Positions 2,706-21,506 of a stretch of DNA of 64,000 nt are shown piece after piece. The notes under the pieces were generated by a model. That model was not told where the DNA came from. It did not search any database and worked only from the letters and a program-made list of their open reading frames with translations. How positions within the stretch are numbered: position 1 is the first letter of the stretch; every line of letters starts with the position of its first letter. The stretch is from NCBI GenBank assembly GCA_024639785.1, contig JAHEGI010000003.1:1-64000 (forward strand), written 5' to 3'. This DNA is from Cryomorphaceae bacterium (GTDB lineage Bacteria > Bacteroidota > Bacteroidia > Flavobacteriales > Schleiferiaceae). The translations under genes were made by a program, and so were the position numbers.

Positions 2706-3662
2706 TTACGCGCTTAAGGTAAATTTTCCTCTAAGTCGAAAGCCTCGAAGGAAGTCGATTGTTTTCATTTTTCGCTTTCCGGGCCATTGTATTTCTAGAA
2801 TATTTAGAACTCCTTCACCCTGAGTTAAATGCACACCGCTGTCTGTAATAATTAGTTTAATACTATGTTTGTAATCTTCTGATTTACAATAATTAATAAT
2901 CTCCGAAGCGAAAACCTTAATTCGTCCATTTTCGGCCACATCTAAGTCGAAACTCGCCCCAGGAAAGGGATCACACGCTCTGATGCGATGATGTACGGCC
3001 TCTAAAGTTTTCAACAGTTCAATTTGGCCAAATGGTGGATAAATTTTTGGAGCCAATCGGGCGTCATTTGAGACTATTTGGCTTGACGCTGCTAGATTTC
3101 CGGCAGAAAGGCCTTCAATTGTGCGCACAGCCAGGCCGGCCCCCGCGATTTTTAAGCGATGATACAATGATGAAATGGGCTCATTTTCGCCGATTGGGAG
3201 TGCCTCTTGAAGGAGCACTGCGCCTTCATCAATGCGTTCATTCAGTAAAAAGGTGGTCACACCGGTTTCCTGGTCCCCATTGGCTATGGCCCATTGGATA
3301 GGCGCAGCGCCCCGATAATCAGGTAACAAAGAGGCATGTACATTGAACGTGCCCAAAGGAGGCATGTTCCAAACGGCTTCCGGAAGCATGCGGAATGCCA
3401 CGACGACAAATACATCGGCGCTGTAAGCCGCTAGGTTCTCAAGAAAATCGGAATCTTTGAGTCTTTCTGGCTTGATTACAGGTAGATTGAGCCGATCAGC
3501 GGTGTCTGAAACATGCGATGACTGCACCTTTAATCCCCTTCCAGCCGGTTTGTCCGCCGCCGTAACTACCGCAACAACCTCCATTTGAGGGGTGGACACG
3601 AGGGCCTCAAGGGTCGCCGAAGCGAATTCGGGGGTACCGAAGAAAATGATGCGGGTGTTCAT
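2706..3662 (-). CDS. fmt: methionyl-tRNA formyltransferase
   Basis: Fmt formylates the amino group of Met-tRNAfMet using 10-formyl-tetrahydrofolate, allowing initiation. The 318-residue protein begins MNTRIIFFGTPEFA. It contains the catalytic FNVHASLLPDYRGAAPIQWAI block (Asn and His) and the later IDEGAVLLQ that carries the catalytic Asp. The C-terminal OB-like tRNA-binding domain follows, with DPFPGASF and FLRGF. The start at 3662 is chosen because its ATG overlaps the recQ stop in an ATGA; an upstream in-frame codon at 3698 would put 12 unrelated residues inside recQ. It is the last gene of the AAA ATPase-recQ-fmt operon. Confidence 0.96.
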   Translation of the reverse strand: MNTRIIFFGTPEFASATLEALVSTPQMEVVAVVTAADKPAGRGLKVQSSHVSDTADRLNLPVIKPERLKDSDFLENLAAYSADVFVVVAFRMLPEAVWNMPPLGTFNVHASLLPDYRGAAPIQWAIANGDQETGVTTFLLNERIDEGAVLLQEALPIGENEPISSLYHRLKIAGAGLAVRTIEGLSAGNLAASSQIVSNDARLAPKIYPPFGQIELLKTLEAVHHRIRACDPFPGASFDLDVAENGRIKVFASEIINYCKSEDYKHSIKLIITDSGVHLTQGEGVLNILEIQWPGKRKMKTIDFLRGFRLRGKFTLSA

Positions 3663-6368: not shown

Positions 6369-8984
6369 TTCTTCAGGCTTAACCGATTCTGAATCACTTG
6401 GCTCATCCTTGGCCGCCTTTTTCTTGCTTGCTTTTGGTTTGGCCGCATCTTCTGGATGGTCAGTATTTCGCTCCGACGCTTCGATGCGAAGTTTCAAGAC
6501 CTCCGCTTCGGGTTCGGCCGAGAAGAAGATGGCGTCGCCCGGGTGAGCTTGGCCTTTAACGATTTCTTCGGCGAGGGGATCCTCCACATATTTTTGGATT
6601 GCTCGAGCGAGTGGACGAGCACCGTATTTGGGATCATAGCCTTTCTCCCCAATAAAGTGAATGGCCTCTTCGTCTAAAGTCAGCTGATAACCGATGGCAT
6701 CCATACGACGAATCAATGCGGCGGCTTCGATTTTAACAATCTTGGCGATGTCCTCCTTTTCGAGTGAGTTGAAGACGACCACATCGTCAATGCGATTCAA
6801 GAACTCTGGCGCAAAGGCCTTCTTCAAAGCGCTTTCTATGACTCCCTTGGCTAGTTCATCGGCTTTGCCTTCTCTCGATTGCGTGCCGAAGCCTACGCCC
6901 GTGCCAAAATCCTTTAGCTGCCGCGAGCCTATGTTCGACGTCATGATGATCAAGGTGTTTTTGAAATCTACCTTGCGTCCCAAGCTATCAGTCATATGGC
7001 CCTCGTCTAACGCCTGTAGCATCAAGTTAAAAATATCCGGGTGGGCCTTTTCGATTTCATCCAGAAGTACGACGGAATATGGCTTTCGGCGAACTTTTTC
7101 CGTCAACTGACCACCTTCTTCATATCCCACATATCCTGGAGGCGCTCCAACGAGTCTCGAAAGGGCAAACTTCTCCATGTATTCTGACATGTCAATCCGA
7201 ACTAAAGCATCTGCCGAATCAAAAAGTTGTACCGCAATTTCTTTGGCGAGTTGCGTCTTTCCGACGCCAGTAGGTCCAAGGAAAATGAAGGATCCAATGG
7301 GCTTATTGGGGTCTTTTAGTCCTGCGCGATTGCGTTGAATGGCACGCACCACCTTGCTTACGGCCGTGTCTTGACCAATAATTTTTGATTTGATACTGTC
7401 CTCCATTTGGGCCAGCTTATCAAGTTCTTGCTTGGCCACCTTCTTAACGGGAATACCCGTCATCATTGAAACAACTTCGGCAATGTGCTCCTCAGTTACA
7501 GGTTGGCGATTTTCGCGAAGCTCTTCTTCCCATCGGGCTTGTGCTTTGCTGAGTTCCCCTTCAATGTTCTTTTCGTCATCGCGAAGTTTGGCGGCCTCTT
7601 CATAGCGTTGACGTCGGACCACCTCCATTTTTTTCTGACGGATTTCTTCCAAATTCTTTTCGAGTTCAGCCACTTCGTCGGGCACAACAATGCTGGTAAT
7701 GTGGACCCGACTTCCAGCCTCATCGAGTGCATCAATCGCTTTATCGGGGAGATGGCGATCGGAAACATAGCGAACCGTCAAACGAACACAGGCCTCCAAT
7801 GCTTCGGGGCTATAGGTGACGTTGTGGTGTTCCTCGTATTTGGGCTTAAGATTTTCAAGAATCTGTAGGGTTTCTTCCGGGGTGGGAGGGTCCACCATGA
7901 CCTTTTGGAATCGGCGCTCCAACGCCCCATCCTTTTCGATGTACTGGCGGTATTCATCCAAAGTTGTAGCTCCAATGCATTGAATTTCTCCGCGTGCCAA
8001 GGCAGGCTTGAACATGTTGCTGGCATCCAAAGATCCCGTTGCGCCCCCGGCACCCACAATCGTGTGCAATTCATCGATGAAAAGGATGATGTCATCGTTC
8101 TTTTCAAGCTCGTTCATCAAGGCTTTCATGCGCTCCTCGAACTGACCACGGTATTTGGTCCCTGCGACGAGAGAGGCGAGGTCTAAGGTGACAACCCGCT
8201 TTCCATAAAGTACGCGGCTCACTTTTTTCTTTACAATCCGCAAGGCTAATCCTTCTGCAATGGCGGATTTACCCACGCCTGGCTCGCCAATCAGCAAGGG
8301 GTTGTTCTTTTTACGACGGGAAAGCACTTGGCTCACGCGTTCGATTTCTTTTTCGCGCCCCACCACAGGATCCAGTTTATTCTCCTCGGCTAATTTGGTG
8401 AGGTCCCTACCAAAGTTGTCCAGCACGGGCGTTTTGCTCTTGGGGTCCGCGCTTGCTTTTCTGGAAGAGGCGCGGGGAGTGGGGTTTTCATCTTCTTCTT
8501 CATCGTGCAGCGCGGATGTGGGTTGGCTCCGACTTGAACTGGCATCATCCATGAATTTGGACTGATATTCTGCCTTGACGGATTCATATTCGACTCCCAT
8601 ATTCTTGAAAACGCCCGTTACAGGGTCGTTTTCATTGCGTAGAATGCACAAAAGGAGGTGCGCGGTACGTATGACGGCACTCGCATAAAGTTTCGCTTCC
8701 AGGAAGGTTGTTTTGAGGGCTTTCTCCGCGGGGCGGGTCAATGGGATGTTCTTTCTCGGGGCGGAACTCGCGTCTCCTAATTCTGTCAGGCCTTCGATTT
8801 TGCCACGCAAGGCGCTCAAATCCACGCCCATAGAGCGAAGTATCTCCACAGCGGAGCCTTCGCCTTCGCGGACCAAGCCCAAGATTAAATGTTCGGTACC
8901 AATACTGTCATGGCCCAAGCGAAGGGCTTCCTCCTTGCTGTAACCAATGACGTCTTTGACGCGGGGGGAAAAATTCTCATCCAT
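6354..8984 (-). CDS. clpC: Clp protease ATP-binding subunit ClpC
   Basis: This Hsp100 unfoldase feeds substrates to ClpP and helps in protein quality control. The 876 residues show two N-terminal Clp repeats ([16 protein letters not shown], then [12 protein letters not shown]), a variable acidic linker (145-190), AAA1 with Walker A at 233-240, a UVR-like middle region ([18 protein letters not shown]), and AAA2 with GPTGVGKTQ and DEIEKAHPD. The UVR segment marks ClpC rather than ClpA/B. The C-terminal tail is rich in Lys and Glu. The start at 8984 is the canonical ClpC N-terminus; upstream codons add 49 residues not seen in ClpC. A near-consensus -7 element TTACTTTG ends 5 bases before this ATG. 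Confidence 0.97.
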
Positions 8985-11749: not shown

Positions 11750-13039
11750 ATGAAAACGACTGCATTCTTTGGAGCTATGGTGTTGTCCATCTCCATGTTC
11801 GCCCAGGCACCGAGCGTTTCGAGTGCCAAAATCGCCATGGATCGTGGAGATCTAACTGAAGCCAAGAAGTACATCGATGAGGCGACGGGTATTATCGAAG
11901 CTCAGCCCGCGGCAGAGCAGAATCCTAAGCTGATGCCGAAGTATTATGCGTACCGTGGTCAGGTGTATTACAAGCTTTTTCAAGATAAGGCTTTGACGAA
12001 GCCTGAATACCTGGATGAGGCAGCCAAGAGCTTTGCGGACTGTATCGCCTTTGAAGCGGAAAGCAAGAAGAAGCGCTATTCCAAGGAAGCAGAGGAGTTA
12101 CTCCCGTATATCGCTTCGGATTACATCACCATAGCGGAAGACAATAACTTCAACAAGAACAATAAGGAAACGGCAATAACTGCCTACGAATCAGCATACA
12201 AACTCCGAATGCAATTGGGCACAATGGATACGCTTACGCTGAGTTACATTGGATATTTGTCACAGGATATCAAGAACTACGCCCGTGCGGAGGAAGTATA
12301 TAAGTCCTTGATTCAGATGGACTTTAAAAACATCATGTGGACAGGTATCCTCTTGGAAGATGGCAATCGCTATCCTTTCCCAGACAAGAAGACCTTAGAT
12401 TTTTATATCACCACGGAGCGTGCTGCTGAGCCAAAGCGCTCTGAAAGTATCGCCCATGAGTTCTATGTTCAACTGTTGTGGGTGTACAGCGAAACAGATC
12501 AGCAAGAAGCGTATGATGCCTTGATGAAGGTGGCTCGCGCCAAGTTTCCTAGCAATGACAATCTCTTGAAGATGGAATTGCAGACATTCTTGGACAAAGA
12601 AGACTTTGATGGCGCTCTGGCCAACTTGGAAGAAGCTTTGGTCAGTGACCCCAAAAATGCCTTGTATCTGTACAATGCAGGTTTTATCTACCATCAGAAG
12701 AAAAAGGATGCCGTCAAAGGACGCGAATATTACGTAGCAGCGATGGAAGCGGACGCCAATTATTTGGATGCTGTTTACATGCTGGGCTTGATGCATATCG
12801 ACGAGTCAAACGTGGTGGTCGAGAAAATGAATGCCTTACCTCGTAACGCGAAGAAAGAGTATGACAAGCTCAACGGAGAGAAGGATGCCGAACTGGCCAA
12901 AGCCTTAGTGTTCTTTGAAAAAGCCTACGCGATCAATGCGAAGGACGAAGCAACGTTGCAAGCCTTGCGCGAAGTGTATTACAAGCTTGGCAAATATGAC
13001 GACGCTAAGCGTATTATGGAGGAAATGGGAAATATCTAA
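11750..13039 (+). CDS. secreted tetratricopeptide repeat protein
   Basis: This 429-residue protein opens with a signal peptide (MKTTAFFGAMVLSISMFAQ, cleavage after AQ) and is otherwise helical TPR repeats. Examples are AKKYIDEATGIIEA, YARAEEVYKSLIQ, FDGALANLEEALVSDPKNALYLYNAGFIY and ALVFFEKAYAINAKD. Such proteins usually scaffold complexes in the periplasm or at the outer membrane; the partner is unknown. The start at 11750 is set by the signal peptide and the promoter. It is transcribed alone between its promoter and a strong terminator. The position behind gyrA is common in Bacteroidota. Confidence 0.85.
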   Translation: MKTTAFFGAMVLSISMFAQAPSVSSAKIAMDRGDLTEAKKYIDEATGIIEAQPAAEQNPKLMPKYYAYRGQVYYKLFQDKALTKPEYLDEAAKSFADCIAFEAESKKKRYSKEAEELLPYIASDYITIAEDNNFNKNNKETAITAYESAYKLRMQLGTMDTLTLSYIGYLSQDIKNYARAEEVYKSLIQMDFKNIMWTGILLEDGNRYPFPDKKTLDFYITTERAAEPKRSESIAHEFYVQLLWVYSETDQQEAYDALMKVARAKFPSNDNLLKMELQTFLDKEDFDGALANLEEALVSDPKNALYLYNAGFIYHQKKKDAVKGREYYVAAMEADANYLDAVYMLGLMHIDESNVVVEKMNALPRNAKKEYDKLNGEKDAELAKALVFFEKAYAINAKDEATLQALREVYYKLGKYDDAKRIMEEMGNI

Positions 13040-13060
13040 TCCTAGTTTTAACTTATTTAG

Positions 13061-13091
13061 AAAACGCGCTCCAATCGGGGCGCGTTTTTTT
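13061..13091 (+). terminator. Rho-independent terminator of the TPR gene
   Basis: A twelve-pair stem (13061-13072 with 13077-13088) closes on an AATC loop and runs into a block of seven Ts. Confidence 0.9.
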
Positions 13092-13317
13092 ATTTGGGTG
13101 ATCTGGATTTCTTCATGTATCGGCTCGGTTAAGAAGTGGTGGGTCGGCATGGAATGTCAGGATGTTTTAAATTGTTAGTTAACATAATATATATTATGGG
13201 CGAATTGATTTGATTCGAATTCAGCCCTGAATGTTGCACGATGGCTTCTTGCGTGGAATTCTTGCCCATCCCGATGGAATCCTCCTTCTGTAGCGCGGAT
13301 CACGCCTTGACCGTCCT
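13092..13317. other. gene-poor spacer downstream of dnaE2-like gene
   Basis: No convincing gene is present. A perfect AT-rich 16-bp palindrome lies at 13183-13198. On the minus strand a 42-codon open frame with a GTG start (13303) runs to 13175, just after the dnaE2-like stop and in another frame. It has no recognisable motif and I do not call it a gene. Confidence 0.5.
13183..13198. repeat. perfect 16-bp palindrome
   Basis: CATAATATATATTATG is fully self-complementary. It could be a protein-binding site, a cruciform or a weak bidirectional stop; with no T-run it is not a typical terminator. Confidence 0.6.
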
Positions 13318-16300
13318 CTATGAAGGCAATCGCTTAACCGAAGGATTGCTGGGTCTGCGTCGCGGAATTTGAATCACAGGATGTCCAAGTCCCGCATCGG
13401 CATAGCGTGGATCAGCCACCATTGGGCAACGCTCTACATGCTCAACTTCTAAGCTGAGATAACCATGTTCGGACTGAACTCTGCCCTGCAGTATGTATAC
13501 ACCGCGATCTTTAAGGGCAAAGCGTCGCACGGCAGGTGGAAAATGCACACTGTCGAATAGATCTCCATTGAATTCCTGAAAGGTTCCAAACTGCATGTGT
13601 TCGCCTTTGACGGTCTTGCTGTTTTTGACGGCAACCACATAGCCTAGCGCCTGTATGGTTTGGCCCAAATGCTTTTTCCACTGCGTCACGCGGGTAAAAG
13701 GCTTGCCTTGCCAGCCTGTGAATAAATCAAAGGGATGTCCGAGGCTAAAGCCAAATAGTTCTAATTGATCGTAGGCATCGTCCAAAATATGCTGAGAGAG
13801 TTCAGGCAGCGTAAACATCCGTGTGGGAGCTTCAAAAAGCGATAGGCTCGGTGCGGCCTGGGGCTTGTGTCCGAGGCGATGATGAGCTTCCCACAAAAGG
13901 GCTCTTTTTGCTTGCTGTGTAAAGCGGAATGCGCCAGCTCGAATCAGTAAAAGCAGGGATTCCATGGGGATAGGATGCTCTGCGCGGTGCATTCGATCAA
14001 TGAAGGTTGCTAAGGAGGAAAACGATCCTTGACGCGAACGCTCCTGGACGATGCTGTGGCAAAACCCTATGTCCATGCTTGAAATGCGCTCCATGCCAAG
14101 CAGAATGCGCTTTTCTCCGATGAGGCTTGTCGTAACCCTTCCCTCGTTGACACATGGGGCTTCGACAAGCGCGCCGTGTCGCCGCGCCTCATGGAGATAA
14201 AACTCCGCTCGGTAAAATCCTCCGCCATTATTGACAGTGGCCACGAGGTACTCCAAGGGAAAGTGAGCCTTTAGGTAGAGGCTTTGAAAGCTTTCTACGG
14301 CATAGGAAGCGGAATGCCCCTTCGCAAAGGCATAGCCTGCAAAACTTTCAATTTGCCGCCATATTTCTCGGGCATCCGCATCTGGATATCCCCGGCTTCG
14401 ACAATTGGTAAAGAACTGCTGTTCTACCGCCAAAAACTCCTCTCGAGATCGGTATTTGCCCGACATACCTCGGCGTAGCACATCTGCTTCGGCTAAGCTG
14501 AGTCCTGCATAATAATGGGCTACGCGGATAACATCTTCTTGGTAGACCATGACGCCGTAGGTTTCGGGCATAATGTCCAATAAAATTGGGTGCGCCTGCG
14601 CCCGTTTCTCGGGATAACGATGCCGTTCAATGTATTCGCGCATCATGCCCGATTGCGCAACGCCTGGGCGAATGACAGAACTGGCGGCGACTAGCTCAAG
14701 GTAATTGCTGGTTTGCAGCTTATACATAAGCATGCGCATAGCGGGGGACTCTACATAAAAGCATCCCATCGCGCCACCGTTTCTGAGGAGCGCCAAGCTT
14801 TTAGGATCTGTTTTGAAACGCCCCACGTCGTGTATGTCGAGTTGGGCTACTTCTGCGGGCTTGCTTTCCTTAAGGATGGTGATGCATTCGGAGATTTTAC
14901 TGAGTCCTCGCTGTCCCAGGATATCAAATTTGTGTAGGCCAACATCTTCGGCTGTATACATGTCAAAATCCACGGTGGGAAAGCCTTTGGGTGGTAAAAA
15001 CGTGGTCGAAAAGGCATGCAGCGGCTCCTGTGCAATCAAAATACCCCCGGAGTGAATACTCATCCGATTTGGGAGGCCATGGAGTCGATGCGCATATTGT
15101 AGTAGACGCTGGGTGCTTTCGTCCCCTGCGGGGATCTTTCCGTCGGCAATGGCATCAATTTCAAACTTTGGCAAGCCGAAGACCTTGCCTAGTTCACGCA
15201 CCACCGCGCGATATTGAAATGTGTTGCAGGCGCCAAGTAAGGCCGTATGTGGAAAGCGTTTAAAAATGTATGCTGTCAGGTGTTGGCGGTCTCGCCACGA
15301 AAAATCTAAGTCAAAATCAGGCGGAGACTGTCGATAGAGGTTGATGAATCGTTCAAAATAGAGATCGAGCTCAATGGGGTCGACATTGGTAATTTTTAGC
15401 AAGTAGGCCACGATGCTGTTGGCGCCACTGCCGCGCCCCACATAGAAATACGACTGTTTCTGCGCGTAGCGAACGATGTCCCAGTTAATTAAGAAATATG
15501 CGGTAAAAGCTTTTTCTTGAATGATTTGAAGTTCTTTTTCTAGGCGTTCATGGACTGCGCGACTCGCATGGGGGTAGCGGTGCGGAATGGCGTCCAGGCA
15601 CAGGTGTCTAAGGAGGTTCTGGTCTTTGAGGCTGGAACCTGTATAGGTTTGTTGGTTTTTTCCCCCACTCCCCTTTCCCAGTTGCGCATCCCATGGCGCT
15701 AGGCTGGCAAGGAACTCCTGCCCCTGAGTCCAGAGTCGCTTTGAAAAGCGCGTAGCTAGGCTTTGTGCATCTTCCCAGCGATGGGCGTTGGGTAGGTGGT
15801 CGTTTGGTGTCAATTTGCTTAGTACGGTATTGAGCTCCATGGCTCGAAGCAGCCGATGGCTATTGAAGTCGCCCGTCCCGCGGAAGGCCATGGTTCCCCA
15901 GGCTAGGCAGCGTTGGGGTTCAGGGTGTCGCTCTGCGCGGCGCTGTTCACTTTCTTCAATGCCGATCCACTCGTCCGCGCGGAGCCTCCGCTCCGGCGCT
16001 CGTGCCAGCGGATAGATGGTTCGAACATCCATAAGTTGAGGAAGGTCTTCAATCTGTCGGGGTCGTGCCTGGCTAAGCCAGGCGTTGATTTGCTGGAAAC
16101 CCAAGGGGCTTTCGGGCATTAAAACAGCCATGCGAATTCCGCCAATCCGTAGGTCTACAGCGGGCTGTATGGGCAACTTAGCGAGCTGAAGGCTAGGCAG
16201 GATTCCCGCCGTGCCATTGATTTCCGCTAGTATTAGAGGGTTACAGCCGTGCATTTCCGCGAGGCTTAGGACGTCTTTGGGTTCCAGCACTCCAAATCGG

Positions 16301-16329
16301 AAGCTGTACGCCGTGTGGCTGAGTATCAT
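13318..16329 (-). CDS. DnaE2-like (error-prone) DNA polymerase III alpha subunit
   Basis: This C-family DNA polymerase of 1003 residues is likely a translesion subunit. The catalytic centre is intact: PDFDLDF with Asp340 and Asp342, and HKFDILG with Asp469. The fingers block (ETYGVMVYQEDVIRVAHYYAG, ADVLRRGMSGK), the AFAKGHSASYA helix-hairpin region and a C-terminal OB fold follow. The N-terminal PHP domain has lost its metal ligands: SHTAYSF replaces HxH and LILAEIN replaces the TDH motif. The length and lack of a long C-terminal tau-binding region resemble DnaE2/ImuC rather than replicative DnaE. It follows the SRAP gene by 3 bases, in a cassette with DinB and a LexA-like repressor. No imuA gene is nearby. 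Confidence 0.88.
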   Translation of the reverse strand: MILSHTAYSFRFGVLEPKDVLSLAEMHGCNPLILAEINGTAGILPSLQLAKLPIQPAVDLRIGGIRMAVLMPESPLGFQQINAWLSQARPRQIEDLPQLMDVRTIYPLARAPERRLRADEWIGIEESEQRRAERHPEPQRCLAWGTMAFRGTGDFNSHRLLRAMELNTVLSKLTPNDHLPNAHRWEDAQSLATRFSKRLWTQGQEFLASLAPWDAQLGKGSGGKNQQTYTGSSLKDQNLLRHLCLDAIPHRYPHASRAVHERLEKELQIIQEKAFTAYFLINWDIVRYAQKQSYFYVGRGSGANSIVAYLLKITNVDPIELDLYFERFINLYRQSPPDFDLDFSWRDRQHLTAYIFKRFPHTALLGACNTFQYRAVVRELGKVFGLPKFEIDAIADGKIPAGDESTQRLLQYAHRLHGLPNRMSIHSGGILIAQEPLHAFSTTFLPPKGFPTVDFDMYTAEDVGLHKFDILGQRGLSKISECITILKESKPAEVAQLDIHDVGRFKTDPKSLALLRNGGAMGCFYVESPAMRMLMYKLQTSNYLELVAASSVIRPGVAQSGMMREYIERHRYPEKRAQAHPILLDIMPETYGVMVYQEDVIRVAHYYAGLSLAEADVLRRGMSGKYRSREEFLAVEQQFFTNCRSRGYPDADAREIWRQIESFAGYAFAKGHSASYAVESFQSLYLKAHFPLEYLVATVNNGGGFYRAEFYLHEARRHGALVEAPCVNEGRVTTSLIGEKRILLGMERISSMDIGFCHSIVQERSRQGSFSSLATFIDRMHRAEHPIPMESLLLLIRAGAFRFTQQAKRALLWEAHHRLGHKPQAAPSLSLFEAPTRMFTLPELSQHILDDAYDQLELFGFSLGHPFDLFTGWQGKPFTRVTQWKKHLGQTIQALGYVVAVKNSKTVKGEHMQFGTFQEFNGDLFDSVHFPPAVRRFALKDRGVYILQGRVQSEHGYLSLEVEHVERCPMVADPRYADAGLGHPVIQIPRRRPSNPSVKRLPS

Positions 16330-16332
16330 GAT

Positions 16333-17112
16333 TTAGGAGGGGCGCATGCCCTCTAGGCGCAGGTCACTTTTGCTTTCGTACTCTTCTTCGCTAAATAGGC
16401 GTTCCCCAATGGGTAGAAGGGTTTTGACGTCTTTGTTGCGCGGGTTTTTAATGGCGGCAGATATGGGATAAGCGTTTAAGCGCTCTCCTGGATAGGGTTG
16501 CAAAAGCTCAGTAATATCGGATAGGTCGCTGTCAAGCGAAAGCCAGTCGCGCTCCGCGTCCCGTGGGATTATGACGGGAGATCGGTGGTGGCGTATCCGC
16601 TGTGTTACACTATTTGCCGCAGCTGTGATGATGGCAAAAGAGCGAATGAGTTCTCCGCTTGTGGGGTTCTGCCATTCATCCCAGATTCCGGCAAAGGCAA
16701 AGGGGCGCTCTTGTTTTCGAAGGTAGACCAGGTAGGGCTCGCTAAGCTTATGGTCTTCTGGGCCCTCGATGAAGGCGTCGGCAAGGACAAGACAGCGTTG
16801 ACTTCGAATAGCCTTGCGGAAGCTGGGCTTTTGGATGATGCCCTTGGCTCCGCGGTATTCTGGGTCGTTTTCGGGATTGTGATCCCCTTCCGCTCGTGCA
16901 TTCAAGAGGCACATGGGCTTTTGTGCCCAGTGAGGCACCAGGCCAAATTGGAACAGCTGAATCTCTCCAGGGCGGTCACTAGCGATTACGGGCGCGCGCT
17001 CGCTCGCCGAAACATTAGGGTTATGAGGGAATAGTTCAGGTTGGGGAACGTGGACGCCAAAGCGCTTTTCAACGACGTCAATCCGGCTTATTTGAACATA
17101 GCGTCCGCACAT
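16333..17112 (-). CDS. SOS response-associated peptidase (SRAP, YedK/HMCES family)
   Basis: SRAP proteins bind abasic sites in single-stranded DNA and form a thiazolidine cross-link through Cys2, shielding the lesion. The 259-residue protein starts MCGRY, so Cys2 becomes N-terminal after Met removal. It keeps NARAEG, the active-site Glu region RCLVLADAFIEGPE (normally GFYEW, so divergent) and the catalytic His in RIRHHRSPVII. The gene is 108 bases after dinB, a gap that contains a perfect palindrome and may hold a second promoter. It is coupled to the DnaE2-like gene, suggesting lesion shielding and bypass act together. That link is inference from context plus the family's known SOS association. 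Confidence 0.92.
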   Translation of the reverse strand: MCGRYVQISRIDVVEKRFGVHVPQPELFPHNPNVSASERAPVIASDRPGEIQLFQFGLVPHWAQKPMCLLNARAEGDHNPENDPEYRGAKGIIQKPSFRKAIRSQRCLVLADAFIEGPEDHKLSEPYLVYLRKQERPFAFAGIWDEWQNPTSGELIRSFAIITAAANSVTQRIRHHRSPVIIPRDAERDWLSLDSDLSDITELLQPYPGERLNAYPISAAIKNPRNKDVKTLLPIGERLFSEEEYESKSDLRLEGMRPS

Positions 17113-17181
17113 AATAGTATTTACTTAATGATTTAAATTAAAGATGTTAAAATACTGGTTTACAATATTATAAATATACCT

Positions 17182-17196
17182 ATAGATATTATCTAT
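17182..17196. promoter_or_regulatory. 15-bp palindrome in the dinB-SRAP gap, candidate operator
   Basis: ATAGATA-T-TATCTAT is a perfect inverted repeat in the AT-rich 108-base gap (17113-17220). It lies about 70-85 bases before the SRAP start. No exact TAnnTTTG is seen there, only near matches such as TAATATTG, so promoter placement is uncertain. Confidence 0.45.
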
Positions 17197-17220
17197 GAGC
17201 TGTTTTGACTCATTTTAGCT

Positions 17221-18432
17221 TTAGGATCTTCGATTGGCAAGCAAGGGTGGCGGCTCTCCATTGAATGGGTTGCCGCGGCCAATAGTTCGGGCCCCTAATC
17301 CATAGGCGCGAACAACCGCACGATCTCCATAGGCGATGCGAATGCGATCCATTGCGGCATAGAGCCGGTCGTTTCGGTCACAGGTTTCAAACAAATGATA
17401 CTGCTCCCCTCCTCCAACGAGCCCACTTAAATGAACGCCGATGAGACGAATCCTCACTCTTCGATCATAGAGGCGTTGAAATAATTCTTTGGCCTTTGGG
17501 ATTAGAATGGCATCTGATGCCGTGTAGGGCATACTGACCTGTTGGCTATGCGTTTGGAAGTCTGCATACCGAATCTTGATTCGCACACAGCTCGTTAGCT
17601 TATGCCCACGACGGAGCTGAAAGGCTAGGTTCTCGACCATGGCCACGAGAATGCTTTGAAGCTTTTCTACATCGGCACTGTCTTGATCAAAGGTGCGCTC
17701 TGTAGAAATTGACTTGCGCTCATTCGTTGCTCGCACGGGGGACTCGTCCAATCCTTGAGCCTTTTCCCAAAGACTTTGCCCTGGCTTTCCAAACACACTG
17801 TAGAGCATGTCTACGGGCATTTCCTGAAGCGTTCCAATGCTCTGAACCCCTAGGTTTCTCAGGGTTTGATAGGTCTTCTCTCCAACCATGGGAATCTTTC
17901 GGACAGACAGAGGCGCAAGAAAACTGCGCTCTGTGCCTAGGTTCACATGGCGTTGGTTATTGGGCTTAGCCTCTCCTGTTGCTACTTTGGAAACGGTTTT
18001 GTTTATAGAAAGGCCAAAGGAAATGGGGAGTCCAGACTCCCGCATGACGCGCTGGCGGAGCTCAGAAGAAAAAGATAGGGCCCCAAAAAAGCGATCCATG
18101 CCGGTTAGATCAGCATAAAATTCATCAATAGAGGCTTTTTCGAGCAAGGGAACCTGCTCTCGAATGATGTCTGTTACTAGCTTGGATTGCTTAGCATAGG
18201 CCGCTGAATTTCCTCGAATGACGACAGCCTCAGGGCATAAGCTTCGCGCCATTCGCATGGGCATAGCGGAACGTATCCCAAATTTTCTCGCTTCATAGCT
18301 ACAGGAAGCCACAACCCCTCGGTCAGAGGTGCCTCCAATAAGAATGGGGCGCCCTTCCAGACGGTGATCCTGCAGGCGTTCGACGGACACGAAAAAACTG
18401 TCCAAGTCCATATGGAGCACGTGGCGTTGCAT
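17221..18432 (-). CDS. dinB: Y-family translesion DNA polymerase (DinB/Pol IV-like)
   Basis: This error-prone polymerase of 403 residues bypasses damaged bases. The first catalytic site is HMDLDSFF, and the second is the SIDEFYADLTG motif that holds the paired acidic residues, so the enzyme should be active (unlike ImuB). Palm and thumb motifs include SCSYEARKFGIRSAMPM, SFGLSINKTVSKVATG, KIPMVGEKT and a helix-hairpin-helix (LRNLGVQSIGTLQEM). A QYHLF near the C-terminal region fits a sliding-clamp motif. The gene lies 15 bases after the S24 repressor gene, which indicates one transcript. Confidence 0.93.
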   Translation of the reverse strand: MQRHVLHMDLDSFFVSVERLQDHRLEGRPILIGGTSDRGVVASCSYEARKFGIRSAMPMRMARSLCPEAVVIRGNSAAYAKQSKLVTDIIREQVPLLEKASIDEFYADLTGMDRFFGALSFSSELRQRVMRESGLPISFGLSINKTVSKVATGEAKPNNQRHVNLGTERSFLAPLSVRKIPMVGEKTYQTLRNLGVQSIGTLQEMPVDMLYSVFGKPGQSLWEKAQGLDESPVRATNERKSISTERTFDQDSADVEKLQSILVAMVENLAFQLRRGHKLTSCVRIKIRYADFQTHSQQVSMPYTASDAILIPKAKELFQRLYDRRVRIRLIGVHLSGLVGGGEQYHLFETCDRNDRLYAAMDRIRIAYGDRAVVRAYGLGARTIGRGNPFNGEPPPLLANRRS

Positions 18433-18447
18433 TGGATTCGGAGCGAA

Positions 18448-19248
18448 TTAGGCGACGTTTTGGTTTAATGCCGTCCGGAGTGCGCGCACTTCTTGCTGCA
18501 GCGCGTCGAGGCGATTTAGAACAGCGTCATCACCTCCAAACTTAGCGGAGAGGTCCCACTGGATACTCCCCTCTACTTTCCAAACCTCTAAGAGGTCCTC
18601 AACATGTACGCGGTAGGGCGCATAGATTGGATTATCTGAAATGAGTTCGATTTCTCCAGAGGAAAGAATGTGATTGCTTGCTCGCTTGAATACAACGCCT
18701 TGGTCCTGAGTGAGAAATACGTAGAGTTCTCCTGTTTTAATGGAATGCCAATCCTGTATATAGCTAGAAATCACATATGAACCCGGGAGAAATGGAAGCA
18801 TGCTGTCTCCTTGAATTTGGAATACGCGTCGAGTTTCCTCGGAGGATAGTTCGGGAATGGGCAATGAAAACTGAGGGAGCGCTTCAACGAAGTCAATATC
18901 TCCATAGCCCCCAAGGTAGCCGGCAGCAGCCTTGACAGGAACGAGGGAGATGCGCTCCCGGTTACTCTCTGGATCAATCGGCACGGCTAGCACGCGTAAT
19001 TTTCGGCCAGCGAGGCGCTCTGCATCGACATCCTTAGAGGGTGATGCTGGGTCTGTGCCGCCGACTAAATCATCGAGACTTGTTTGAAACACACGGGAAA
19101 AAGCCATGAGGGTCTCTAGCTTGGGCTCAGCCCTCCCCTCTTCGTAAGATCCAATTAATGATCGCTTAACTCCTACTCTATCAGCAAGTTGCTGCTGAGT
19201 CCATCCGTTTTTTTTGCGAAGTGATTTCAGGCTATTTGCGAGCTCCAT
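18448..19248 (-). CDS. LexA-like repressor: XRE HTH fused to S24 peptidase
   Basis: This 266-residue repressor has an N-terminal XRE helix-turn-helix (1-60: WTQQQLADRVGVKRSLIGSYEEGRAEPK) and a C-terminal S24 autoprotease. The cleavage dipeptide Ala109-Gly110 lies in KAAAGYLGGYGD. The catalytic dyad is Ser149 in QGDSMLPFLPG and Lys188 in VVFKRAS. By family knowledge, RecA-ssDNA filaments would trigger self-cleavage and de-repress targets. It heads an operon with dinB, and a pair of palindromes overlaps its own likely -7 region, which suggests autoregulation. The fold and catalytic residues are seen directly; SOS control is inferred. Confidence 0.93.
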   Translation of the reverse strand: MELANSLKSLRKKNGWTQQQLADRVGVKRSLIGSYEEGRAEPKLETLMAFSRVFQTSLDDLVGGTDPASPSKDVDAERLAGRKLRVLAVPIDPESNRERISLVPVKAAAGYLGGYGDIDFVEALPQFSLPIPELSSEETRRVFQIQGDSMLPFLPGSYVISSYIQDWHSIKTGELYVFLTQDQGVVFKRASNHILSSGEIELISDNPIYAPYRVHVEDLLEVWKVEGSIQWDLSAKFGGDDAVLNRLDALQQEVRALRTALNQNVA

Positions 19249-19257
19249 CTTATTTTA

Positions 19258-19302
19258 CTAATTAAATTAGAATACTAAATTAGTTAGTAATTAGCGATTG
19301 TG
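19258..19302 (-). promoter_or_regulatory. promoter and candidate operator of the S24-dinB operon
   Basis: Two palindromes, CTAATT-A-AATTAG (19258-19270) and ACTAA-A-TTAGT (19274-19284), have centres 15 bp apart, and further TTAG half-sites run to 19294. On the minus strand the second contains TAATTTAG, one mismatch from TAnnTTTG, with a TTTG 20 bases upstream as -33. A repressor bound here would cover the -7. The likely binder is the S24 protein itself. Confidence 0.55.
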
Positions 19303-19311
19303 CAAATTTTT

Positions 19312-20559
19312 TTAGTCAGAATGTAGCGGACTATCTACCATGGCATGCCCCGCAAGCCATGCTCCAGTCCATGCTGCTTGGAAATTAAATCCACCCGTTA
19401 ATGCATCTATATCTAACACCTCCCCGGCAAAAAATAAGCCTGGCTGCAAGCGGCTCTCGAAAGTTTGAAAGTTCACTTCTTCCAGCGCGATCCCCCCTGC
19501 CGTAACGAATTCTTCCTTAAACGTGCTCTTGTCGACTACTTGAAAACTAGATTCGGTCAGCGTTTCTGACAAGCGGCGAACGACGGGCTTACTTAAATCA
19601 GACCAATTAGCCGTTTCGGGGATGCGAGCATGGGTACAAAGTGCCTTCCAAAGCCGGAGAGGCAAGCCATACAGAGCGTTTGAAATTACGCGCTTACGCT
19701 GAAAATCAAAGTCCTTACGGTGTCCATTGAGCTCTTCAAACAGGTCTTCAGCATCCATATTTGGGACCCAATCAACATAGATGTTGAAACGATAGTCTTG
19801 CTTGGCCATCCAACGGGCGCCAAAAGAAGAGAGCTTGAGTACCGCAGGTCCACTGAGCCCCCAATGGGTAATTAACAAGGGGCCCTCCGTTTCAAAACCA
19901 CCCACGGGCAGCGTAATACGTGCGCTAGGAACAGAAACACCCGCCAAATCTTTCAGGCGCGGGTCGCGAATGTTGAAGGTAAAGAGGGATGCCACGGGAG
20001 AAATGATGCGATGTCCCATGTTTTGGACACTATCCCACATGCGTTTGGAGCTGCCAGTAGCCAAGAGGATCCGATCATAGTACTTGGTTTCGCCAGAGTC
20101 CAAAACAAGATCAAACCCACCATCTTCCCGAGGATCAATCCTTTTCGCGCCTGACTTTAAATGAAATTCTACCCCTGCCCGTTCAGCAAATTCTAATAGA
20201 CAATTGGCAATGCTTGAGGATTGATTTGACACCGGAAAAACTCGACCATCATCCTCGATTTTCAAATCGACCCCACGGTCAGTAAACCACTCCATGGTGT
20301 CGCCGCATGCAAATTTGTGAAATGGTCCAAGCAATTCTCGCTGGCCACGAGGGTAATATTCAACAAGTTCATGCGGATCAAAGCAACCGTGAGTCACATT
20401 GCAGCGTCCGCCGCCTGAAATAAGCACCTTGCCCAGCAAGGTGCTTGATTTTTCAAAGACATGAATCTGTGAATCAGGTGAGGCCTCTCCAGCGGCAATG
20501 GCAGCAAAGACACCGGCGGCTCCTCCACCAAGAATAGCGATTGAATATGAAGCACTCAC
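19312..20559 (-). CDS. HI0933/YhiN-family FAD-dependent oxidoreductase
   Basis: This 415-residue flavoprotein belongs to the HI0933/BaiN-like group, whose physiological substrate is mostly unknown. The dinucleotide fold GGGAAG (11-16) is followed by the family signature LISGGGRCNVTHG. The C-terminal FAD block TGGFNFQAAWTGAWLAGHAM is also typical. The start is a GTG at 20559: MSASYSIAIL follows, and an exact -7 element TAATTTTG ends only 4 bases before it, so a leaderless mRNA is expected. It ends 63 bases upstream of the S24 repressor gene. Confidence 0.9.
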   Translation of the reverse strand: MSASYSIAILGGGAAGVFAAIAAGEASPDSQIHVFEKSSTLLGKVLISGGGRCNVTHGCFDPHELVEYYPRGQRELLGPFHKFACGDTMEWFTDRGVDLKIEDDGRVFPVSNQSSSIANCLLEFAERAGVEFHLKSGAKRIDPREDGGFDLVLDSGETKYYDRILLATGSSKRMWDSVQNMGHRIISPVASLFTFNIRDPRLKDLAGVSVPSARITLPVGGFETEGPLLITHWGLSGPAVLKLSSFGARWMAKQDYRFNIYVDWVPNMDAEDLFEELNGHRKDFDFQRKRVISNALYGLPLRLWKALCTHARIPETANWSDLSKPVVRRLSETLTESSFQVVDKSTFKEEFVTAGGIALEEVNFQTFESRLQPGLFFAGEVLDIDALTGGFNFQAAWTGAWLAGHAMVDSPLHSD

Positions 20560-20588: not shown

Positions 20589-20972
20589 TCAATGCCCCCA
20601 AATCACTGGGGGCGGAATATCCGCTTTGCGGATTTTGATGAAGCGCCCGCTTTGTTCGAAATATTCCAAGTCATAGAGGCCATAGCACATGGTTCCATCC
20701 TCGAGCAAATCCATACCGGTGGCGTATTTCGGATTAAACCCTTGCATTAGTAGCTCGTCCTTCGATACCAGGTCCTGCCCAGAGTTAAAATGTTCGGCGA
20801 GAACACCATAATTCTGCTTGAGGCTGCGATGGTAGGGGCGGCATATTTTATTGGCATCCATCATGCGGGCATTGTGATAAGAATTACGGCAACCATCGTC
20901 GCAATATTTCTTGTCCGCGCGCCCCACAAGCGGCAATCCGCACTGGAGGCAATAAGTTTGATTTCGTTTCAT
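20589..20972 (-). CDS. small zinc-ribbon protein of unknown function
   Basis: This 127-residue protein carries an N-terminal zinc ribbon: CLQC (residues 8-11) and CDDGC about 13 residues later. The remainder (helical, then NPKYATGMDLLEDGTMCYGLYDLEYFE) has no motif I know. Similar short proteins occur as hypotheticals in Bacteroidota. It is 29 bases upstream of the flavoprotein gene on the same strand; that gene has its own -7 element in the gap. The 177 bases between this gene and divergent ssb hold repeated TTTGTAAA boxes. Confidence 0.7.
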   Translation of the reverse strand: MKRNQTYCLQCGLPLVGRADKKYCDDGCRNSYHNARMMDANKICRPYHRSLKQNYGVLAEHFNSGQDLVSKDELLMQGFNPKYATGMDLLEDGTMCYGLYDLEYFEQSGRFIKIRKADIPPPVIWGH

Positions 20973-21039
20973 TGTTTCGTCTTGTTATGTGATATGAGTT
21001 AACTGCAGGCAATTTATAGAGTGTCATTTGAGATACTTG

Positions 21040-21085
21040 TTTGTAAACGGATATACTTATTTACACAATTATTAACATTTGTAAA
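21040..21085. repeat. three TTTGTAAA/TTTACA half-sites upstream of ssb
   Basis: TTTGTAAA occurs at 21040-21047 and 21078-21085, with the inverted TTTACA at 21060-21065 between them. The arrangement looks like an operator in the divergent region between the zinc-ribbon gene and ssb. No exact -7 element is seen for either gene; GATTTTTG at 21118 is a near match for ssb. Confidence 0.35.
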
Positions 21086-21149
21086 TCAATGCTACCGAAT
21101 GAGCGTTTTCCGGTGTGGATTTTTGGTTGAAATCAATACAAACATCCAA

Positions 21150-21506
21150 ATGGCAAACATGAAAAATCGAATCACCCTCATTGGTCGGGTTGGGCAAGCT
21201 CCGGAAAGCAAAACCTTTGACTCAGGTAAAATGCGCTGTCAATTCTCGATGGCTACCCATGAGAAGATTAAATCGACTGAGGGAGCGCTGCGCGAAGACA
21301 CACAATGGCACTCCATTGTCCTCTGGGGACCCATGGCTCAAATTGCTGAAAGTTATCTACGGAAAGGCGACTTGTGCGCCCTCGAAGGCAAGCTAGTCTA
21401 CCGGAGCTATGAAGATGCTCAAGGGCAAACGGTTTATCGCACAGAAATACTGGGCAATGACCTTCAATTATTAAGTCCAAAGTCCTCGGAAATGCCGAAA
21501 GAATGA
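21150..21506 (+). CDS. ssb: single-stranded DNA-binding protein, short form
   Basis: This 118-residue OB-fold protein starts MANMKNRITLIGRVGQAPE, then shows QFSMATHEK, DTQWHSIVLWG and YLRKGDLCALEGKLVYRSYED, all normal SSB features. SSB coats single-stranded DNA during replication and repair. The protein ends at LQLLSPKSSEMPKE and lacks the acidic DDxPF-type tip that recruits partner proteins. It may therefore be a secondary SSB. An in-frame ATG at 21159 is also possible; codons further upstream add unrelated residues. The 3' end overlaps the convergent carboxypeptidase gene by 43 bases. Confidence 0.9.
   Translation: MANMKNRITLIGRVGQAPESKTFDSGKMRCQFSMATHEKIKSTEGALREDTQWHSIVLWGPMAQIAESYLRKGDLCALEGKLVYRSYEDAQGQTVYRTEILGNDLQLLSPKSSEMPKE

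Follow-up and report, generated by a model that had tools for sequence, protein, structure and literature searches.

A probable auto-repressed SOS mutagenesis operon with a non-canonical LexA-type repressor in a small-genome Schleiferiaceae-type bacterium

Do a repressor, two DNA polymerases, and an SRAP protein encoded side by side in a small bacterial genome form one unit of the DNA-damage response, and what else does the repressor control? The DNA analyzed, hereafter the window, is a stretch of 64,000 nucleotides (contig JAHEGI010000003.1, positions 1 to 64,000) from a Cryomorphaceae bacterium whose genome (G000) comprises 1.82 Mb in 22 contigs and is 98.3% complete; judged by its nearest relatives, the window falls within or beside the Schleiferiaceae, order Flavobacteriales. 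A preliminary description of this DNA had reported four consecutive minus-strand genes, and all four are borne out as uninterrupted, intact open reading frames (ORFs) with Pfam matches above the curated cutoffs. In order of transcription, they encode an XRE-S24 repressor of the non-canonical LexA type (18448..19248, 266 aa; HTH_3 and Peptidase_S24), a Y-family polymerase resembling Bacteroidetes PolY2 that would be annotated as DinB (17221..18432, 403 aa; IMS and IMS_C), an SRAP protein (16333..17112, 259 aa; SRAP, 1.3e-45), and a DnaE2-type C-family polymerase (13318..16329, 1003 aa; DNA_pol3_alpha, finger, and HHH_6), all on the minus strand and separated by gaps of 15, 108, and 3 bp. The sole Pfam S24 match and the sole Y-family match of G000 both sit in this cassette, which argues against a chance assembly; its SRAP is likewise the only SRAP match in the genome, there is one RecA-family match (PF00154), and a second C-family polymerase (G000:C20, ~147970-149808) is taken as the replicative one. 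We put at about 85% the probability that the cassette is an auto-repressed SOS mutagenesis operon, and it looks like an already described Bacteroidota type of DNA-damage-response unit.

The repressor carries a CI/XRE-type helix-turn-helix domain followed by an S24 domain with the Ala-Gly, Ser, and Lys residues of self-cleaving repressors and, judged by its sequence, fits the "non-canonical LexA" of Bacteroidetes. The predicted self-cleavage bond A109-G110 (18919..18924), the predicted catalytic serine S149 (18802..18804), and the predicted catalytic lysine K188 (18685..18687), all encoded on the minus strand, are each invariant in 10/10 aligned rows; the relatives in this alignment, as in those of SRAP and DnaE2 below, were chosen from the loci fetched, a part of all those found. 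The self-cleaving repressor of the preliminary description thus stands as far as the gene and its predicted cleavage residues go. A structure model of modest quality (mean pLDDT 67), used solely to read off the succession of secondary structure elements, has a five-helix N-terminal domain, a beta C-terminal domain, and a terminal helix. The non-canonical LexA group that recognizes CTAA-N5-TTAG (PMC8565304, 2021; this and the other papers cited are drawn on from part of their text) shares the CI-like DNA-binding domain and S24 domain, intact cleavage residues, and C-terminal helix; its repressors also have an operator in the promoter of their own gene, and their effectors belong to the same COGs. 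In that work, CTAA-N5-TTAG was shown by electrophoretic mobility shift assay (EMSA) to be the operator of a Bacteroidetes repressor, substitutions in either half-site abolished binding, and EMSA together with mitomycin C induction was published for two relatives (PMC8565304). An XRE-type repressor in place of a winged-helix LexA, which the preliminary description had inferred for this version of the cassette, is correct as to type and already in print in the same article. By analogy with these relatives, RecA filaments on damaged DNA would provoke self-cleavage of the repressor at A109-G110 through S149 and K188.

A CI-like N-terminal domain and sequence matches to the phage repressor families phrog_4 and phrog_8 could also point to a prophage or mobile-element switch, with the cassette as horizontally acquired cargo outside host SOS control. 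We regard this origin as very improbable because the chromosomal place is fixed and G000 holds no other S24 match: in 16/16 repressor-bearing genus loci the same HI0933-type gene lies immediately upstream, and in 12/16 the cassette is followed by the same TPR gene. Near full-length relatives with 44-47% identity are, moreover, encoded in 15 Pontibacter loci, all 15 of which have the same operator near the repressor start (the P. actiniarum protein was not in this comparison).

If the cassette is an auto-repressed SOS operon, its control should be legible upstream of the repressor. A regulatory stretch that the preliminary description did not cover (19258-19306) lies in the interval separating the repressor start from the gene upstream of it and contains two exact operators on the minus strand: O1, CTAACTAATTTAG (CTAA-N5-TTAG, 19275..19287), and O2, CTAATTTAATTAG (19258..19270), 17 bp from O1. 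O1 overlaps TAATTTAG (19275-19282), which we take to be the -7 element of the Bacteroidota -33/-7 promoter consensus, and a TTTG that is a candidate upstream promoter element (19303..19306, minus strand) stands 20 nt before it; the same succession of TTTG, 20 nt, and TAnnTTAG can be seen by eye in several genus promoters. Because O1 covers the candidate -7 element, repressor binding there should block RNA polymerase, and the repressor, bound to the two sites, would silence itself and the three downstream genes. An exact operator was present upstream of the repressor in 18/18 genus genomes examined, in two copies in six of them (G000, G003, G004, G006, G010, and G018) and in one copy in the other 12, and near the repressor start in 52/80 named loci, these being the best 80 of 552 relatives by repressor profile, some of which coincide with contigs of the genus genomes.

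The preliminary description would have taken a gene order unique to this genome as counting against its reading, and the order is not unique to it. Within a genus sample of 22 genomes, G000 included, the succession repressor-PolY-SRAP-DnaE2 is unbroken in 11; in G011, DnaE2 is cut by a contig end. Four more (G001, G008, G009, and G021) have fragments that fit the same order with contig ends between them; DnaE2 of G001 is split over two ORFs, and no PolY was found in G021. In G019, which is 63% complete, all three effectors went undetected. Among 20 loci from the wider family and order, three (L056, L057, and L058) have the order of the window, and 15 have PolY within ~1.3 kb of DnaE2, or SRAP between the two, in either order. 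The four genes run in one direction in 17/80 named loci, including that of the cultured strain Phaeocystidibacter luteus LMG 25704 (L126), where an exact operator is missing, and the repressor has none of the three effectors within reach in 36/80, where some contigs end early. In a further six (L132, L135, L151, L158, L162, and L176), PolY, SRAP, and DnaE2 are divergent from the repressor, an arrangement in which one intergenic region could control both directions.

What kind of polymerases would such an operon release? Residues D9, D103, and E104 of the Y-family protein align with a solved Pol IV (7yll). A QYHLF motif (17389..17403, minus strand) conforms to Q-x-x-[LM]-F, which we take to be clamp-binding and which is found in 32/32 aligned sequences, that of the window included. 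Beyond it the chain continues for 55 residues, in which a RecA-NT-like motif, LYAAMDRIRIAYGDRAVVR (17308..17364, minus strand), can be aligned with the N terminus of the RecA of G000 itself; compared with shuffled tails, this RecA-like tail scored p < 0.01 in 31/32 aligned sequences (p = 0.002 for the window), the exception having p = 0.064. Because of this motif the gene is not a plain Pol IV/DinB, a label that we rejected: the E. coli-type chain ends at the clamp motif, whereas the cassette polymerase carries the RecA-like tail. The "DinB" is, by its sequence, of the Bacteroidetes PolY2 kind and catalytically intact by its residues, so that the active-looking polymerase of the preliminary description was rightly recognized and its name was not. 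A second Y-family gene in several family and order genomes is 31-35% identical to it over residues 2-341 only. In the DnaE2-type polymerase, D338, D340, D342, and D469 are invariant in 13/13 aligned sequences. Its N-terminal region is degenerate: the H-x-H pattern that marks an active PHP domain is gone, and Pfam detects no PHP domain there, in agreement with the published statement that an intact PHP metal site is missing from most DnaE2 proteins (PMC3919608).

Neither imuA nor imuB was found in the 98.3% complete G000, as judged from its one Y-family and one RecA-family match, with no ImuA-specific model run. An ImuA-ImuB-DnaE2 mutasome was rejected as an identity for the cassette, given the intact catalytic residues of the Y-family protein and the lack of a second RecA-family match; the lexA-imuA-imuB-dnaE2 cassette is also a self-repressed operon with dnaE2, but its repressor has another DNA-binding domain. 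The closer counterpart is the Bacteroidetes pairing of an active PolY2 with DnaE2 (PMC6511836, 2019), later the DnaE2B-PolY-RecA module (PMC12926913, 2026), in which ImuA is absent and RecA has been proposed in its place. The window shares with it two apparently active polymerases encoded by neighboring genes, the lack of ImuA and ImuB, and the RecA-NT motif on the Y-family protein. An intact DinB standing in for ImuA-ImuB, as the preliminary description put it, is therefore right as to the intact Y-family protein and the missing ImuA and ImuB and is not new (PMC6511836, PMC12926913). A lexA gene is reported to be frequent in operons of the PolY2-DnaE2 type (PMC6511836, PMC12926913). The two arrangements differ in SRAP, which lies between PolY and DnaE2 here and is not part of the Bacteroidetes module in the portion of the account drawn on, where SRAP-like proteins are linked to UmuC-like polymerases (PMC12926913). 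Once the operon is freed, the Y-family polymerase would dock on RecA by its RecA-like tail and also on the clamp, and DnaE2, probably without proofreading, would extend past the lesion.

The SRAP protein has C2, N71, E116, and H175 invariant in 11/11 aligned sequences, residues to which we assign active-site roles on the pattern of YedK/HMCES, and it would cross-link to abasic sites in single-stranded DNA and shield them. Work published in 2013 already described SRAP genes next to those for DinB, LexA, or a DnaE paralog (PMC3765255), so the SRAP that the preliminary description regarded as newly added to such a unit does lie between the polymerase genes but is no novelty. These SRAP-DinB operons share with the window an SRAP gene beside DinB, LexA, and sometimes DnaE; they differ in that the exact four-gene order is not given in the part of the article drawn on, and its main text nowhere uses the word Bacteroidetes.

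How far does the reach of the repressor extend beyond its own operon? G000 contains five exact CTAA-N5-TTAG sites, compared with 45 matches to the reversed control, which makes the motif scarce and not enriched. Two of the five are the tandem pair in the repressor promoter. The other three were rejected as targets: one is at the stop of a uvrA-like ORF (named by eye), between convergent genes, and two are inside ORFs. No operator was detected upstream of recA in G000 with up to one mismatch tolerated. Since the other three exact sites are outside promoters and recA has no site, the exact-site regulon consists of the cassette operon alone, and, on this sequence evidence, the operon may be the only target of the repressor in this small genome. 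The tandem pattern, with up to two mismatches, occurs at one place in G000 and at none for the reversed control, and the longer pattern ACTAA-N5-TTAGT occurs once, at the repressor promoter, against five for the reversed control. Several published non-canonical LexA families have large regulons with recA as a possible target, whereas exact promoter sites are here confined to the cassette operon; markedly small regulons in some clades have also been published, so contraction as such is known (PMC8565304).

A sister draft genome, G018 (84% complete), has a different configuration. Its stretch between the repressor and TPR-gyrA is without polymerase or SRAP, and its assembly yielded no Y-family candidate, no SRAP, and no DnaE2, the other C-family polymerase alone being found. 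Its recA is preceded by both operators, which begin 63 and 46 bp before the gene and lie in an 85-bp segment copied from the repressor promoter and first codons; the copy is identical at 77/85 positions and has no mismatch along a 40-bp run that spans the two operators (L079, G018:C5:1-9000, 3358-3445; L080, G018:C74:3000-15000, 6608-6692). By eye, the copied codons make up a leader of nine codons, and its TGA overlaps the recA ATG. The copies differ outside the operators and so are not one piece assembled twice, and a copy of the repressor promoter before recA is as expected if the operators carry damage control. A recA locus was available in 21 genus genomes. Within 300 bp of recA (215 bp being available in G019), G018 alone has an exact site, G007 and G008 have a one-mismatch site at -262, and 18 have none. 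Among 16 other family and order genomes in which recA was located, two have an exact site (G026 and G036), G022 has only distant one-mismatch sites, and 13 have none; recA control is accordingly patchy, and its origin in the family may be older. In the recA promoters of G036 (L189) and G026 (L200), the exact operator is at -25 and a one-mismatch site at -8, with the 17-bp spacing of the repressor promoter. We hold as evenly poised the proposal that the SOS response here collapsed to one operon, the repressor governing itself and its mutagenesis genes while recA stays outside, and that the sister species G018 rebuilt it in reverse, the mutagenesis genes being lost by deletion and recA being captured through the 85-bp promoter duplication. 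Draft genomes underlie both the one-operon regulon and the recA promoter copy, and the regulon also depends on the counting of exact sites. If true, the collapse and the recA capture would be a direct snapshot of SOS regulons shrinking and being rewired.

Several observations weigh against the auto-repressed operon. Mismatched sites could exist elsewhere in G000 beyond the exact-site count, and the repressor promoters of five other family genomes have an exact site in 2/5 and none in 3/5. Over the genus, the tandem pattern (up to two mismatches) is found at 15 places in 12/22 genomes, namely 12 repressor promoters, recA in G018, and two places in G012, and is no commoner than its reversed control, at 20 places in 10/22 genomes; the number of matches thus says nothing, and their places do. 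An extra tandem-like site in the AT-rich G012, whose reversed control gives two, was rejected because it lies inside a 692-aa ORF of no evident repair role. For the G018 copy, a 40-bp perfect run has a chance of 0.04 given eight differences, and this run test is weak. The 108-bp gap before SRAP leaves room for a second promoter, with promoter-like matches in the region at the level of chance (six against 5.9 expected in a sigma-70 scan of 13000-19600, which with four terminators against 8.0 was uninformative). Induction, binding, and cleavage are attributed to this organism by analogy with relatives.

The operator counts bear on whether the repressor might still govern a wide SOS network by way of operators that have diverged beyond the reach of a search for exact dyads. 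A single exact site in 12/18 genus promoters and none in 3/5 other family members suggest that imperfect sites may count, large regulons have been published for other families (PMC8565304), and an AT-rich genus clade has 36-71 exact sites per genome, compared with 3-19 in the rest of the genus, a clade about whose regulon we make no claim. We nevertheless think such a network unlikely, given that substitution of either half-site abolished binding in the published EMSA (PMC8565304), that recA is without a site at up to one mismatch in 18/21 genus genomes, G000 included, and that the tandem pattern occurs once in G000.

Also weighing against the full cassette as one unit, five genus genomes (G010, G012, G013, G015, and G016) keep repressor, PolY, and DnaE2 with no SRAP in the operon, and no SRAP match was found anywhere in these draft genomes; the polymerase pair thus does not need SRAP. 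The SRAP-less clade (L043, G015; L044, G010; L045, G016; L046, G013; L055, G012) is also the clade with 36-71 exact operators. With SRAP alone missing in one clade, the single lesion-handling module of the preliminary description went too far on SRAP: one apparent transcription unit is there, and an obligate SRAP is not. Might the genes share an operon and still act separately, the Y-family polymerase on small lesions, DnaE2 in gap extension, and SRAP at abasic sites, with no joint complex? The absence of SRAP alone from one clade would fit, as would the rearranged orders LEX-SRAP-...-DNAE-DINB in L059 and L062 and LEX-SRAP-DNAE-DINB in 3/80 named loci, which co-regulation alone explains, and no PolY was seen beside DnaE2 in 5/20 family and order loci (L060 and L067-L070), contig ends being near in three. 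We find separate action doubtful in view of the closeness of PolY and DnaE2, or their flanking of SRAP, in the other 15/20 loci in either order, of the conserved RecA-like tail, and of published modeling that supports PolY-DnaE2-RecA complexes (PMC12926913).

The preliminary description was right in outline and not new, each part being in print (PMC8565304, PMC6511836, PMC12926913, and PMC3765255). In the literature, covered largely as open-access main texts, we did not find described the four-gene order in this family, the recA promoter copy, or a one-operon regulon in this genus; new here are the one-operon exact-site regulon, the absence of SRAP from five genus genomes, and the G018 recA promoter copy. 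The cassette is a clean, compact case, its four parts apparently transcribed as one unit, of a system so far characterized by bioinformatics and by tests in two relatives. Should the regulon really consist of a single operon, it would offer a minimal SOS circuit, free of other targets, for the study of the repressor, both polymerases, and SRAP. Natural variants occur in the genus, with no SRAP in five genomes and one draft genome without effectors in which recA stands behind a promoter copy, and these genomes make the gain and loss of SOS regulon members testable.

Two neighbors upstream of the cassette deserve mention. An SSB-like protein (named by eye) is encoded at window positions 21021-21506 on the plus strand, ~1.8 kb upstream of the repressor, without an exact operator. 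A 127-aa protein with several cysteines (20589-20972, minus strand), unmatched in Pfam and NCBIfam, is encoded at the same position, two genes upstream of the repressor, in 11/16 repressor-bearing genus loci.

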